Of a stretch of DNA of 64,000 bases, positions 38,741-59,567 are shown piece by piece (the first letter of the stretch is position 1; each line of letters begins with the position of its first letter). Origin of the DNA: Carnobacterium divergens (GTDB taxonomy: Bacteria > Bacillota > Bacilli > Lactobacillales > Carnobacteriaceae); contig NZ_LT992558.1 of NCBI RefSeq assembly GCF_900258435.1, forward strand, positions 1,579,518 through 1,643,517. The letters are read 5' to 3'. The notes below the pieces were generated by a model that was not told the DNA's origin, ran no database searches, and saw only the letters and a program-made list of their open reading frames with translations. The position numbers and the translations under genes are program-made.

Positions 38741-38785
38741 ACTTTCCTTTAACAATAGTCCTGTGAGGCTAAGAAGGAGCATAAG
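38741..38785 (+). promoter_or_regulatory. PyrR-binding loop, first pyr attenuator
   Basis: The conserved AGTCCTGTGAGGCTAAGAAGG lies in a hairpin with TCCTT/AAGGA and ACTT/AAGT stems. PyrR bound with UMP holds this anti-antiterminator and so favours the terminator just downstream. Confidence 0.92.
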
Positions 38786-38827
38786 TAAAACTAGGAATAG
38801 TTTTACACCTCAAAGATAACATTGTGC

Positions 38828-39432
<605 letters not shown>

Positions 39433-55711: not shown

Positions 55712-56413
55712 TTGGATTGGTTCTACGAAGAAGGCCCCAGAGGTCCTGAAAATTGGAAAAATATCTGTGCGATTTTTCATAAAGCTGAAAATGAAAGTTT
55801 ACAATCGCCTATTAATTTAAAAGAAGCAGAGGTTACAGCTGCGATGGATGGAAATCTACTTGATTTTGATTACCACGCAACAAATTTTAGATCCTCCTTT
55901 TTTAATCATACGGTCCATTTAAATCCTGTGGCAGGAGAAAAAATCAATCACGTAGTCTTTAATCATAAACGTTATACATTAGAAGATATCCATTTTCATC
56001 TACCTAGCGAACATTTGATTAACAGTCAGCAATTTCCTTTAGAAATGCACCTTGTTCATCGTTCAGCAAAAAACGAGTTGCTCGTTATTGGCGTCGTAGC
56101 AGAACCTACTCAAGTGCCCTTAAATAAAAAATTAGCGAAAATTGATAACATTGCATTAAATCCAAGAAATGCAGCTAGAGGATTTATAGTTCCTATTCTG
56201 TTAACACAATTGTTGCCTGAAAAACGTACTTTTTTTAATTATAGTGGGTCCCTTACAACACCGCCAACAGAAGGTCCCGTTGAATGGCTTGTATTTAAAA
56301 TGCCCGTTTACATGCGCCAAGGACTTTTAAAAGCTTTTGAGGAGCAGATTGGCAAAACCAATCGTCCTGTTCAAGAAAGAAAAGGGCGGCCCGTTTATTT
56401 AGCAGACAACTAG
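55712..56413 (+). CDS. Alpha-class carbonic anhydrase without signal peptide
   Basis: This enzyme interconverts CO2 and bicarbonate. It has 233 residues. The alpha-class features are clear: QSPINL, the zinc ligands in DIHFHLPSEH and EMHLVH, and NYSGSLTTPPTEGPVEW. The TTG at 55712 is chosen because TAGGAGG (55698-55704) is seven bases upstream. The product begins MDWFYEEGPRGPENW and has no signal peptide, and no longer start would add one. Bacterial alpha enzymes are usually exported, so a cytoplasmic place is unusual. It could supply bicarbonate for carboxylations such as CarB, though it is not in that operon. Confidence 0.9.
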   Translation: MDWFYEEGPRGPENWKNICAIFHKAENESLQSPINLKEAEVTAAMDGNLLDFDYHATNFRSSFFNHTVHLNPVAGEKINHVVFNHKRYTLEDIHFHLPSEHLINSQQFPLEMHLVHRSAKNELLVIGVVAEPTQVPLNKKLAKIDNIALNPRNAARGFIVPILLTQLLPEKRTFFNYSGSLTTPPTEGPVEWLVFKMPVYMRQGLLKAFEEQIGKTNRPVQERKGRPVYLADN

Positions 56414-56433
56414 CCTTAATTAGTGAAATCTGC

Positions 56434-56463
56434 TTGACAAATAAGATTGAAACATAGTAAGAT
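56434..56463 (+). promoter_or_regulatory. trpXYZ promoter with direct repeats
   Basis: TTGACA (56434-56439), an 18-base spacer and TAAGAT (56458-56463). The 9-base direct repeat TAAGATTGA occurs at 56442-56450 and 56458-56466, 16 bases apart. The second copy overlaps the -10, so it may bind a regulator. Confidence 0.75.
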
Positions 56464-56496
56464 TGATTTATCAAAGAAAACAAAGGAGTGCCACAC

Positions 56497-56559
56497 ATGA
56501 AAACAACACCAACGAATCTAAAACAATTAAATCGCAATTGGCAAAGCCAAAATAGATAG
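56497..56559 (+). CDS. Trp-containing leader peptide 1 of the trpXYZ operon (20 residues)
   Basis: AAAGGAG (56482-56488) precedes an ATG at 56497. The frame encodes 20 residues ending NRNWQSQNR and stops at TAG 56557-56559. It has a single Trp codon (56539-56541) and no homology to a structural protein. It lies 18 bases ahead of RNA segment 1 of a terminator/antiterminator fold, so it is probably the sensor ORF of an attenuator. The stretch TGGCAAAGCnAAAA is repeated in leader ORF 2. Confidence 0.6.
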   Translation: MKTTPTNLKQLNRNWQSQNR

Positions 56560-56580
56560 GTTGGATTTCATGAGAGTACT

Positions 56581-56700
56581 CATAGATGCAGCCTTCAGAC
56601 AGACTTTCTGAACTTGTATCTATGTTGGTTTATTTGAGAATTTACATTAAAATTCCACCGCATAGAAACGGATACCCTGATTCTATGTGGTTTTTGTTTT
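56581..56700 (+). promoter_or_regulatory. Four-segment attenuator of the trpXYZ operon
   Basis: Four RNA segments share the core CATAGA/TCTATG. Segment 1 is CATAGATGCA (56581-56590), segment 2 TGTATCTATG (56615-56624), segment 3 CCGCATAGAA (56658-56667) and segment 4 TTCTATGTGG (56681-56690). Pair 1:2 is a 10-base stem. Pair 2:3 (56619-56628 with 56658-56666, one bulged U) is an antiterminator. Pair 3:4, followed by TTTTTGTTTT, is an intrinsic terminator. This is the logic of a classic attenuator. Confidence 0.65.
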
Positions 56701-56706
56701 GCTAAA

Positions 56707-56750
56707 AACAGCTTCCACAATGGTTCTATTCATTGGGAAGCTGTTTTTTT
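56707..56750 (+). terminator. Second terminator in the trpXYZ leader
   Basis: AACAGCTTCC (56707-56716) plus CAATG pairs with CATTG plus GGAAGCTG (right arm 56731-56745), followed by a T-run to 56750. It lies between the first attenuator and leader ORF 2. CCACA in its left arm (56715-56719) can also pair with TGTGG of segment 4 (56686-56690), so it too may be conditional. Confidence 0.8.
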
Positions 56751-56780
56751 ATTCATAAAATAGGTAGAGGAGTTTTATAA

Positions 56781-56933
56781 ATGAGACAATGGACTAGTCA
56801 ACGATGGCAAAGCAAAAAGACGATATCAAACAATGAAATAATAATTTATTGGAGGAAAAACAATGAAAAAAATGATTGGTTTTATTACCGTATTGGTTAT
56901 TCTGTTAAGCGTTGCGTTTGTAACAGAAACTAA
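56781..56933 (+). CDS. Trp-containing leader ORF 2, overlapping trpX (50 codons)
   Basis: AGAGGAG (56766-56772) precedes an ATG at 56781. The frame begins MRQWTSQRWQSKK and runs 50 codons to TAA 56931-56933, overlapping trpX out of frame by 71 bases. Trp codons are at 56790-56792 and 56805-56807. A third (56850-56852) lies within the TTGGAGG ribosome binding site of trpX. Ribosomes translating this ORF would cover the trpX start, while ribosomes stalled at the first Trp codons would leave it free. Confidence 0.45.
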   Translation: MRQWTSQRWQSKKTISNNEIIIYWRKNNEKNDWFYYRIGYSVKRCVCNRN

Positions 56934-57846
56934 AAAACAAGCAACAAAAGAAAAAGAGATTCCAATTGTAGGAATTTTACAACTAACGAGCCATCCAGCA
57001 CTGGATAAGATTTATGAAGGCATCATGGATGCTCTAAAAGAAGAAGGGTTTGTCGATAAAAAAAATATCAAAATTGATTTTCAAAATGCACAAGGAGATC
57101 AAAGCAATTTAAAAACAATGAGTGAACGTTTTGCCAATGAACAAGCTGCTGTAATGGTAGGAATTGCTACACCTTCAGCACAAGCATTAGCAAATGCTTC
57201 AAAAGAAATCCCAATTGTTTTAGGTGCTGTAACAGATCCAAAAGGTGCAGGATTAGTGGCAGACAATCAGCATCCAGGAGGTAACATTACTGGTGTAAGT
57301 GATTTAACGCCAATCAAAGCACAGTTTAACTTAATCAAAACCCTTCTTCCAAACGCTAAAAAAATAGGCATTATCTATTCATCAAGTGAAGATAATTCAG
57401 TTGTTCAAGGCAAACAAGCAGAAGAAGAAGCCAAAAAATCGGGTTTAGAACCTATTACAGCAACGGTTTCTTCAACTAATGATGTTAATCAAGTAGCCAC
57501 TAACTTAGCTGAAAAAGTTGATGCTATCTATGTTCCCGCTGATAATACCGTGGCTAGTGCCATGAATACTTTAATTTCAGTCACAGATGCCAAAGGAATT
57601 CCTGTATTTCCAGCTGTCGATACAATGGTAGCTGAAGGTGGGTTAGCAACCGTTGGATTAAACCAATACGAACTAGGAAAAATGACGGGGAAAATGACGG
57701 CTGATTTATTAAAAGGGAAGAAAAAAGCAGCAACTACACCGATTGAATATTTAAAACATGGAGATACCATTATTAATCCTAAAAAAGCAGAAAAACTAGG
57801 CATCACCATTCCGAAAGAAATGTTAGATCACGCAATCATCAATTAA
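56863..57846 (+). CDS. trpX: Tryptophan-type ABC transporter substrate-binding protein
   Basis: This ABC_sub_bind (DUF534) family protein of 327 residues has an N-terminal hydrophobic segment (about residues 5-21). It lacks a lipobox cysteine, so it is probably tethered by that helix or secreted. Core blocks are VGILQLTSHPALDKIYEGI, GAVTDPKGAGLV and LNQYELGKMTG. The family was named TrpX in streptococci and relatives. The Trp-coded leader ORFs upstream support tryptophan as the ligand. TTGGAGG precedes the ATG. Confidence 0.8.
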   Translation: MKKMIGFITVLVILLSVAFVTETKKQATKEKEIPIVGILQLTSHPALDKIYEGIMDALKEEGFVDKKNIKIDFQNAQGDQSNLKTMSERFANEQAAVMVGIATPSAQALANASKEIPIVLGAVTDPKGAGLVADNQHPGGNITGVSDLTPIKAQFNLIKTLLPNAKKIGIIYSSSEDNSVVQGKQAEEEAKKSGLEPITATVSSTNDVNQVATNLAEKVDAIYVPADNTVASAMNTLISVTDAKGIPVFPAVDTMVAEGGLATVGLNQYELGKMTGKMTADLLKGKKKAATTPIEYLKHGDTIINPKKAEKLGITIPKEMLDHAIIN

Positions 57847-57867: not shown

Positions 57868-58758
57868 ATGAATTTAATCGTTACAGCAACTTCACAAGGA
57901 TTATTATGGGGCGTAATGGCGCTAGGAATTTTTATTACCTTTAGAATTTTAGATTTACCTGATATGACAGCAGAAGGGTCCTTTCCTTTAGGTGCTGCCG
58001 TTTGTACCAAGTTAATATTATCAGGTGTTCATCCAATAGTGGCAACACTAGTCGCATTTATTAGTGGCATGTTGGCAGGGGCCATCACAGGATTTTTAAT
58101 TACAAAATGCAACATTCCAGGATTACTAGCTGGAATTTTAACGATGACGGGTTTGTATTCCATTAATCTTCGAATTATGGGACGTGCTAATTTAAGCCTA
58201 CTTGGCAAGGAAAAGCTTAATGATCTGCTTCGCCCCTTACAGTTACCAGCGCAATTTGATACGATTTTAATTGGTTTGATTATCGTAGTGGTCGTTATTC
58301 TTTTATTGATCCTCTTTTTTAACACAGAATTAGGTCAAGCCTTAATTGCTACTGGAGACAATGAAATCATGGCTCGTTCACTAGGTGTTTCTACAAATAA
58401 AACTAAAATTTTAGCGTTAATGTTATCCAACGGCATGATTGCTTTTGCTGGCGGGTTAATCACACAAGATAACGGCTATGCAGATATCAGCATGGGGATT
58501 GGGACCATAGTTATTGGATTAGCTTCAGTTATCATCGGAGAAGTCGTTTTTGGCAACCTCTCATTAGGAAATCGATTGATTTGTGTGATTCTTGGAGCGA
58601 TTATCTACCGTTTGATTATTACTTTCGTGTTAGTTATTGGCTTACAACCAAATGATTTGAAACTCTTTTCAGCTATCATTTTAGCTGTTTGTTTGGCACT
58701 CCCAAGCCTACGCTTAAAACTAAACTTAAATTTCTTTGCTAAAAAGGAGGAAGCCTAA
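57868..58758 (+). CDS. trpY: Tryptophan-type ABC transporter permease
   Basis: The membrane subunit has 296 residues and about eight hydrophobic segments, and belongs to the BPD_transp_2 (branched-chain/ribose-like) permease group. It opens with ATSQGLLWGVMALGIFITFR and later has FAGGLITQDNGYADISMGIG. TTGGAGG precedes the ATG. Its stop overlaps the ATPase start by one base (TAATG). Confidence 0.82.
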   Translation: MNLIVTATSQGLLWGVMALGIFITFRILDLPDMTAEGSFPLGAAVCTKLILSGVHPIVATLVAFISGMLAGAITGFLITKCNIPGLLAGILTMTGLYSINLRIMGRANLSLLGKEKLNDLLRPLQLPAQFDTILIGLIIVVVVILLLILFFNTELGQALIATGDNEIMARSLGVSTNKTKILALMLSNGMIAFAGGLITQDNGYADISMGIGTIVIGLASVIIGEVVFGNLSLGNRLICVILGAIIYRLIITFVLVIGLQPNDLKLFSAIILAVCLALPSLRLKLNLNFFAKKEEA

Positions 58759-59567
58759 TGACTCAAGAAATTCTAACCTTATCACATATCGAAAAAACAT
58801 TTAATAAAGGAACGATTAATCAAAATCAAGTTTTAAAAGGCATTGATTTAACTGTTAATGAAGGCGACTTTATCACCATTATCGGTGGAAACGGTGCTGG
58901 TAAATCCACACTGCTTAATAGTATCGCTGGAAATTTTTTACCTGACGCAGGACGCATTTCTATCGAAGGCAATGATGTAACAAAATTAAAAGAGCACCAA
59001 CGAGCAGCATTGGTTGGTAGAGTATTCCAAGACCCAAGAATGGGGACAGCTTCGCGAATGACGGTTGGAGAAAATATGTCGATGGCTTACCGCAGAGGTC
59101 AAAAAAGAACGTTGCGTAAAGGCAATACTCAAAAAGAGCGAACTTATTTTAAAGAGCAACTAGCCCAATTAGGATTAGGTTTAGAAAATAGAATTGATAG
59201 TGAAATCGGATTGCTTTCAGGTGGGCAACGACAGGCGATTACGTTATTGATGGCTACTTTGAAAAAACCAGCTATTTTACTATTAGATGAACACACAGCC
59301 GCATTAGATCCAAAGACAGCAAAAGTAGTACTGGACTTAACGAATCAACGCATTCAAAATGAGGGGTTAACTACGCTGATGATTACGCATAATATGAAAG
59401 ACGCGTTGACCTATGGCAATCGTTTAATTATGTTAGACTATGGCAAAGTAGTTGTGGATATTACTGGGGATAAAAAATCCCAACTTTCTGTAAATGATGT
59501 GATGAACCTGTTCCAAACGGCGACGAAAGATGGGCATTTAAAAGACGATATGCTTTTAGGAAGTTAA
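58758..59567 (+). CDS. trpZ: Tryptophan-type ABC transporter ATP-binding protein
   Basis: The ATPase has 269 residues. Walker A is GGNGAGKST, the signature is LSGGQRQA, and the Walker B region is LLLDEHTAALDP. His replaces the more common Pro after DE, as in DUF534-linked ATPases. It drives the TrpXYZ importer. The operon ends at the palindrome before the MarR gene. Confidence 0.85.
   Translation: MTQEILTLSHIEKTFNKGTINQNQVLKGIDLTVNEGDFITIIGGNGAGKSTLLNSIAGNFLPDAGRISIEGNDVTKLKEHQRAALVGRVFQDPRMGTASRMTVGENMSMAYRRGQKRTLRKGNTQKERTYFKEQLAQLGLGLENRIDSEIGLLSGGQRQAITLLMATLKKPAILLLDEHTAALDPKTAKVVLDLTNQRIQNEGLTTLMITHNMKDALTYGNRLIMLDYGKVVVDITGDKKSQLSVNDVMNLFQTATKDGHLKDDMLLGS

Follow-up and report, generated by a model that had tools for sequence, protein, structure and literature searches.

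How could a ribosome that waits at the single Trp codon (56539) of a 20-residue leader ORF control an RNA segment that begins at 56581? This question is raised by the 449-base leader of a tryptophan-importer operon in Carnobacterium divergens (NCBI RefSeq assembly GCF_900258435.1, contig NZ_LT992558.1), which lies in the 64,000-nucleotide stretch of DNA analysed here (positions 1,579,518 to 1,643,517 of the forward strand; hereafter the window). A preliminary description of the sequence proposed a peptide-sensed attenuator rather than a T-box, with four RNA segments sharing CATAGA/TCTATG, but noted that a ribosome stalled at the Trp codon would not reach segment 1, and suggested that stalling at the stop codon or an extra ATGAG/CTCAT hairpin might be part of the switch. 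Our analysis confirms what was observed there, whereas the interpretation placed on it is only partly supported: an attenuator rather than a T-box is supported, but the assignment of segments was incomplete. According to our prediction, the stalled ribosome need not reach segment 1, since ORF1 carries its own pairing segment (A), which is complementary to segment 2.

The leader lies between the stop of the upstream gene (56413) and the ATG of trpX (56863), whose product matches NCBIfam ABC_SBP_TrpX with 475.9 bits against a cut-off of 390. The window belongs to a 2.8 Mb genome, and its closest named TrpX matches are from Carnobacterium and Desemzia, both Carnobacteriaceae of the order Lactobacillales. 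CATAGA/TCTATG occurs at 56581, 56619, 56661 and 56682, and four copies were reached by 2 of 5000 dinucleotide shuffles of the leader. The leader folds at z = -6.6. The promoter-like site matches the consensus at 10 of 12 positions; such matches are not rare here (3 found, 2.3 expected in shuffles), although by eye the site recurs upstream of ORF1 in relatives. A simple terminator scan, which asks for a stem with a 3-8 base loop, reported no terminator in 56350-56900, and both terminator hairpins described below come from our own scripts. Four elements had been missed in the preliminary description: segment A inside ORF1, the GGTTG/CAGCC part of the 0:1 pairing (the ATGAG/CTCAT part had been noticed, and it is real), a second terminator hairpin that competes for the 3′ arm of the first, and a second Trp-containing uORF. 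The parts of the locus are as follows.

56434-56463, plus strand: promoter-like site, TTGACA-18-TAAGAT
56483-56488, plus strand: Shine-Dalgarno sequence of ORF1 (AAGGAG)
56497-56559, plus strand: ORF1, putative leader peptide MKTTPTNLKQLNRNWQSQNR, followed by a stop
56539-56541, plus strand: Trp codon, the predicted sensor codon
56543-56559, plus strand: segment A, last codons of ORF1, pairs with segment 2
56559-56574, plus strand: segment 0, pairs with segment 1 (GGTTG/CAGCC, ATGAG/CTCAT)
56579-56598, plus strand: segment 1, pairs with 0 or 2
56608-56632, plus strand: segment 2, pairs with A, 1 or 3
56655-56666, plus strand: segment 3, 5′ arm of terminator 1, pairs with 2 or 4
56657-56700, plus strand: predicted terminator 1 (3:4) with T-rich tail; hairpin 56657-56691, -16.9 kcal/mol
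56682-56701, plus strand: segment 4, 3′ arm of terminator 1, pairs with 3 or 5
56704-56718, plus strand: segment 5, 5′ arm of terminator 2, pairs with 4 or 6
56704-56750, plus strand: predicted terminator 2 (5:6) with T-run; hairpin 56704-56748, -24.4 kcal/mol
56781-56933, plus strand: uORF2, beginning MRQWTSQRWQSKK, overlaps the trpX start out of frame
56863-57846, plus strand: trpX, tryptophan ABC transporter substrate-binding protein
57868-58758, plus strand: ORF named trpY by gene order only
58758-59567, plus strand: ORF named trpZ by gene order only

Is this leader conserved? Homologues of TrpX at E<=1e-50, paralogues included, were found in 341 of 395 genomes of the order. We compared the upstream DNA of 83 trpX loci (18 of the window's family, 12 further loci of the order-wide search, 46 of its listed top places chosen for diversity, and 7 from the search for the closest named TrpX matches), which is not a sample of all 341 genomes; three duplicates of the same genomes (L004-L006; L numbers designate loci and G numbers genomes) and 13 paralogues were left out. 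A leader ORF of the form W(Q/R/H)x with a Shine-Dalgarno-like stretch was obtained in 78. Four of the five misses, due to our filter or to loci cut short, also have it on inspection (in L080 the Shine-Dalgarno is weak and in L105 it lies outside the stretch), giving 82 of 83, and only L007 has none. The C-termini vary, with WQSQDR, RWQSR, WQNWRR, RWQGQ and others before the stop. Among the 78, the Trp codon lies 4 to 10 codons before the stop, and 56 peptides have one Trp, 21 two and one three. Twelve of the 78 without a clean call of terminator 1 or 2, judged by eye, were left out of the tests on 66 leaders, and in 4 of the 66 terminator 2 was set by hand. Six close relatives of kept leaders were further left out of a 60-sequence alignment, in which TGG is invariant in 60 of 60, although these leaders had been chosen by a W pattern. 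Loss of the four segments or of ORF1 in relatives had been named beforehand as evidence against the attenuator; both the ORF and the alternative pairings proved to be conserved.

The codons that follow the Trp codon provide the missing segment. In the 60-sequence alignment, the 14 A:2 pairs are formed in 79.4% of cells, against 30.5-46.1% when slid by 1-3 columns. Changes on both sides occur in 56 cells against 12.3 in shuffles (0 of 500 reach it), and 10 of the 14 pairs have such a change against 6.0 (9 of 500 reach it). In the 66 leaders with cleanly called terminators, the best sites of A and of segment 3 on the intervening RNA overlap in 66 of 66, so that A:2 and 2:3 exclude each other. 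A ribosome waiting at the Trp codon would cover most of A, which answers how a ribosome at 56539 can matter to a segment at 56581. Left to itself, RNAalifold finds 1:2 and 3:4, with both-side changes in 16 of its 22 pairs, but not A:2; it also draws a small hairpin over the Trp codon without both-side changes, which is another possible reason for conservation there.

To ask which segments pair with which, duplex energies of true partners were compared with those of partners swapped between species (60 sequences, 2000 permutations). A:2 (-14.5 against -11.0 kcal/mol), 0:1 (-14.6 against -10.0), 1:2 (-15.5 against -12.3), 2:3 (-13.7 against -11.9) and 3:4 (-19.4 against -12.2) were reached by 0 of 2000 permutations, whereas A:1, 0:2, A:3, 0:3 and 1:3 showed nothing. 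A:4 and 1:4 were also reached by 0 of 2000, with smaller gains, as expected if segment 4 resembles segment 2, and 2:4 was reached by 77. The link between the 3′ arm of the first terminator and the 5′ arm of the second, 4:5, is supported in the 66 leaders (-13.6 against -9.0 kcal/mol, 0 of 2000). These permutations ignore relatedness and the counts are therefore not probabilities. With segment 3 held away, 4:5 had 5 or more expected pairs in 66 of 66 leaders; with segment 3 free it did so in 21 of 66, the window's leader among them (15.7 against 5.8 pairs), a point against the model favoured below.

Taken together, we favour with high confidence a model in which the trpXYZ leader is a ribosome-mediated transcription attenuator that senses charged tRNA-Trp. 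Comparison between species establishes the conserved ORF, the covarying pairings, the two terminator hairpins and the change of sensor codon with the operon, whereas the translation of ORF1, the dynamics of the switch and its response to tryptophan are inferred. When Trp is scarce, the ribosome would wait at the Trp codon of ORF1 and mask segment A, while segment 0 would stay free and sequester segment 1. Segment 2 would then be left to pair with 3 as an antiterminator, terminator 1 could not form, and its freed 3′ arm (4) would pair with 5, which would also disable terminator 2 and leave the operon on. When Trp is plentiful, the ribosome would reach the stop codon and cover A and 0, so that segment 1 would be free to pair with 2, 3:4 would terminate transcription and 5:6 would catch polymerases that read through. 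In the absence of translation, A:2 plus 0:1 would form and 3:4 would terminate. Stalling at the stop codon is not needed in this view; the Trp-to-stop distance varies and the stop is displaced in the leaders L027, L028, L030 and L039.

The model was confronted with folding under a simulated ribosome mask, whose footprint limits were our assumption. At equilibrium, the expected number of 2:3 pairs over 66 leaders averaged 3.4 with no ribosome, 4.4 with the A site at Trp, 5.2 at Trp+2, 2.6 at the own stop codon and 4.0 at Trp-5. In a sequential model the values were 7.7 with no ribosome, 9.8 at Trp, 10.5 at Trp+2 and 8.1 at the stop (Trp against stop: higher in 29, lower in 10 of 66), and the no-ribosome state is not clearly off in this model. 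The direction fits, with the average peak at Trp to Trp+2, but the effect is modest and noisy: at equilibrium the best position was Trp+2 in 20 leaders but Trp-5 in 12, only 28 of 66 reach 5 pairs with the mask at Trp, and the leaders L008-L012 form almost no 2:3 under any mask. In the window's own leader the support is slighter still, since a mask at the Trp codon gives no gain over no ribosome (4.2 against 4.2 at equilibrium; 4.3 against 4.3 in the sequential model); gains appear at Trp-5 (8.6) and Trp-4 (6.2) at equilibrium and at Trp+2 (14.9), Trp-2 (9.1) and Trp-4 (6.4) in the sequential model.

If the leader reads codons, do these follow the operon? In the window's own genome there are two further copies. 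One, found through its gene and not by the RNA model, precedes a TrpX-like ABC gene (371 bits, below the TrpX cut-off) and its leader ends FFFSYFR, translated by eye. The other (L128, G000:C4:192255-192401, minus strand) precedes the aroE operon, with a leader ending RYFSYFR. Elsewhere, the leader before trpB ends TWQNWQR or SWQSWHR, and before aroE YYFSYFR. The hisZ leader (L186, G423:C19:14519-14626), in another order, has the scaffold of the trpB motif described below and ends FHHHHRFKGL, and the gene after hisZ looks by eye like hisG. A leader ending IRLRSR, with Arg codons in place of Trp on the same scaffold, precedes a lysine/arginine/ornithine-type binding protein (L174, G373:C1:1145587-1145725) in a genome that also has the Trp version. 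These families were assigned from partial proteins, and the scores are in consequence below curated cut-offs. A leader ending IFFNNHFR precedes a gene that looks by eye like a transporter, one ending QYWFSYFRESL, with Tyr, Trp and Phe codons, precedes a predicted aminotransferase (L129, G003:C1:507417-507572), and a Trp leader precedes a gene that looks like a binding lipoprotein but whose 84 residues tried gave no NCBIfam hit (L169, G348:C1:1281435-1281598). The His, Arg and transporter cases rest on one genome each; indeed, a covariance model of the 60 leaders (R1), searched in 5 genomes of the order of G423, matched only G423. In 26 leaders of other codon types, among them L129, a duplex of A with the downstream RNA was found in 26 of 26 (-8.6 to -23.0 kcal/mol), although A was located with patterns taken from those leaders and without a swap control, and in two of them (L022 and L023) the best partner was segment 4, not 2. 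Trp and Tyr/Phe versions share the scaffold codon by codon, as in CAA AGC CAA GAT AGA (L025) against TTT AGC TAT TTT AGA (L128).

The preliminary description knew of no described system of this form, which needs correcting. Segments 1-4 correspond to Rfam RF04312, the trpB motif (SRC-39-1; PMC11109978), which aligns over its full length (1-107) with window positions 56579-56702. The window's leader scores 53.1 bits, below the gathering threshold of 59, at which the motif is not reported in the window, and we treat it as a homologue below the cut-off; of its relatives, L091 (68.7) and L098 (59.5) pass, whereas L074 (47.1), L094 (42.5) and L107 (36.7) do not. The motif was published among strong riboswitch candidates, with more than 900 representatives in Firmicutes and Fusobacteria, most often before an ABC transporter and also before trpB, and its authors could not rule out classic attenuation. 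Their account mentions at least two hairpins and an antiterminator and, in the text consulted, no leader ORF, segment A, 0:1 or second terminator. RF04312 does not include ORF1, so its hits are not chosen by the ORF. Of 17 RF04312 places found in 15 of 299 genomes of the class, at least five of them loci already seen, 16 have a leader ORF with a Trp, or at least four Tyr/Phe, or at least three His codons near its end, against 110 of 3400 shuffles, a criterion set after seeing examples. The one miss is L192 (39.4 bits). A second family, RF02863 (Enterococcus sRNA 2410), matches the Tyr/Phe leaders L128 (70.7 bits) and L177 (68.0) above its gathering threshold of 61 and L045 (55.9) and L175 (48.0) below it, with a further match in L023; these are leaders of aroE and TrpX-like ABC operons. 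Its consensus structure is A:2 enclosing 0:1. Although catalogued as an sRNA, we read it as the terminated leader of aroE and related operons. The Enterococcus faecium RNA is reported as two transcripts on Northern blots (PMC5593968), which two terminators would give, a link that is our inference.

With respect to its distribution, R1 matched 268 of 395 genomes of the order and 67 of 80 genera at E<=0.001, the training sequences coming partly from these genomes. Outside the order, RF04312 matched 3 genomes at E<=0.001 in the search of the class, L192 being one of them, and one more in the search of the phylum, where 3 of 398 genomes matched at E<=1e-4, two of them already known.

How does this leader compare with other systems? 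As in the Escherichia coli trpL attenuator, there is a leader peptide with a Trp codon, a protector segment inside the ORF that pairs with the antiterminator segment, and an antiterminator exclusive with a terminator followed by a T-run. It differs from trpL in having mostly one Trp codon, a point against the model since classic attenuators have tandem control codons, a typical but not strictly defining feature (the Tyr/Phe and His versions found here are tandem), in the additional 0:1 hairpin, in a second terminator whose 5′ arm pairs with the 3′ arm of the first, and in its position before a transporter operon in Bacillota. In Streptococcus suis, trpX is subject to Trp-responsive transcription attenuation through an experimentally tested, tRNA-binding Trp T-box without a leader peptide (PMC9382623). 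Leader-peptide attenuation in Gram-positive bacteria has been described, operon by operon, for His leader peptides in Firmicutes (PMC2965389; PMC9413887). A literature search that rested mostly on titles and the beginnings of abstracts, and that did not cover subscription papers, showed no paper treating this leader as a leader-peptide attenuator beyond the trpB-motif paper; PMC3166299 and PMC7724050 gave no hit for the terms tried, and PMC11857589 was also considered.

We cannot exclude other explanations, although most appear remote. The published reading of the trpB motif, a riboswitch in which segments 1-2 form an aptamer for an amino-acid-related ligand, draws on the match of segments 1-4 to RF04312. 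Nevertheless, the conserved core is a simple hairpin plus terminator, sensor ORFs precede nearly all of the RF04312 places as counted above, the sensor codons change with the pathway while the core stays, and a covarying segment lies inside the ORF, so that we regard a ligand-binding element as very unlikely. Equally unlikely is TnaC-like sensing, in which free Trp would arrest the ribosome near the ORF1 stop codon, mask segment 0 and force termination. In its favour, the C-terminus is conserved within the window's family, mostly as WQSQ(D/N)R, and the stop codon lies next to segment 0. However, those residues are encoded by segment A, whose base pairing explains their conservation, arrest peptides of the TnaC type have conserved residues at a fixed distance from the arrest codon whereas here the distance is 4-10 codons, some leaders have a displaced stop, and Trp is replaced by Tyr/Phe, His or Arg on the same scaffold. 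A T-box reading tRNA-Trp, as in S. suis, is the least likely, since Rfam listed no T-box at the gathering threshold in the window or at E<=0.5 in the ten family loci searched.

A less remote, though still unlikely, alternative keeps the attenuator but takes terminator 2 as an independent terminator and 4:5 as non-functional. Terminator 2 is indeed the stronger hairpin in the window, and by eye no second terminator follows in L186 and in the locus L196. Against this, 4:5 complementarity changes in concert between species, and a constitutive terminator before trpX would silence the operon.

What would follow if our reading is right? An RNA class with over 900 published representatives, listed as a strong riboswitch candidate of unknown ligand, would get a mechanism in which it reads codons and not a ligand, an Enterococcus sRNA family would be recast as terminated leaders, leader-peptide attenuation would appear to be common in Lactobacillales, and a two-terminator relay would be at hand whose sensor codon has already been exchanged in nature. 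A more far-reaching possibility, which we consider about as likely as not, is that one ribosome decision travels down a domino chain of RNA segments (A, 0, 1, 2, 3, 4, 5, 6) and sets two intrinsic terminators in series, the 3′ arm of the first serving as antiterminator of the second. In this view, the trpB motif and Enterococcus sRNA 2410 would be one modular family of leaders with exchangeable sensor codons (Trp, Tyr/Phe, His, Arg), and in the window's family a third Trp checkpoint, uORF2, would follow.

In this respect, an ATG ORF with Arg-Trp lies between terminator 2 and trpX in 14 of 18 loci of the window's family, against 11 of 3600 shuffles (the criteria were set after seeing examples), and in 14 of 14 with the codons CGA TGG. 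In the window it runs about 70 nt into trpX out of frame, whereas in the sister genome G001 it stops after 12 residues. Folding gave no consistent sign that uORF2 exposes the trpX Shine-Dalgarno: over 14 leaders, masks at or after its Trp codon mostly changed accessibility little and in both directions (the largest changes were 0.54 to 0.74 in L026 and 0.62 to 0.34 in L031). Just 3′ of segment 2 (window 56629-56637), the motif TTNTTT, which could be a polymerase pause site, occurs in 19 of 60 leaders against 6.9 in shuffles, a count that is not corrected for relatedness and that we did not use as evidence. Elsewhere in the window, at 38742-38861, there is a PyrR binding site (RF00515, 55.5 bits), an ordinary pyrimidine element.
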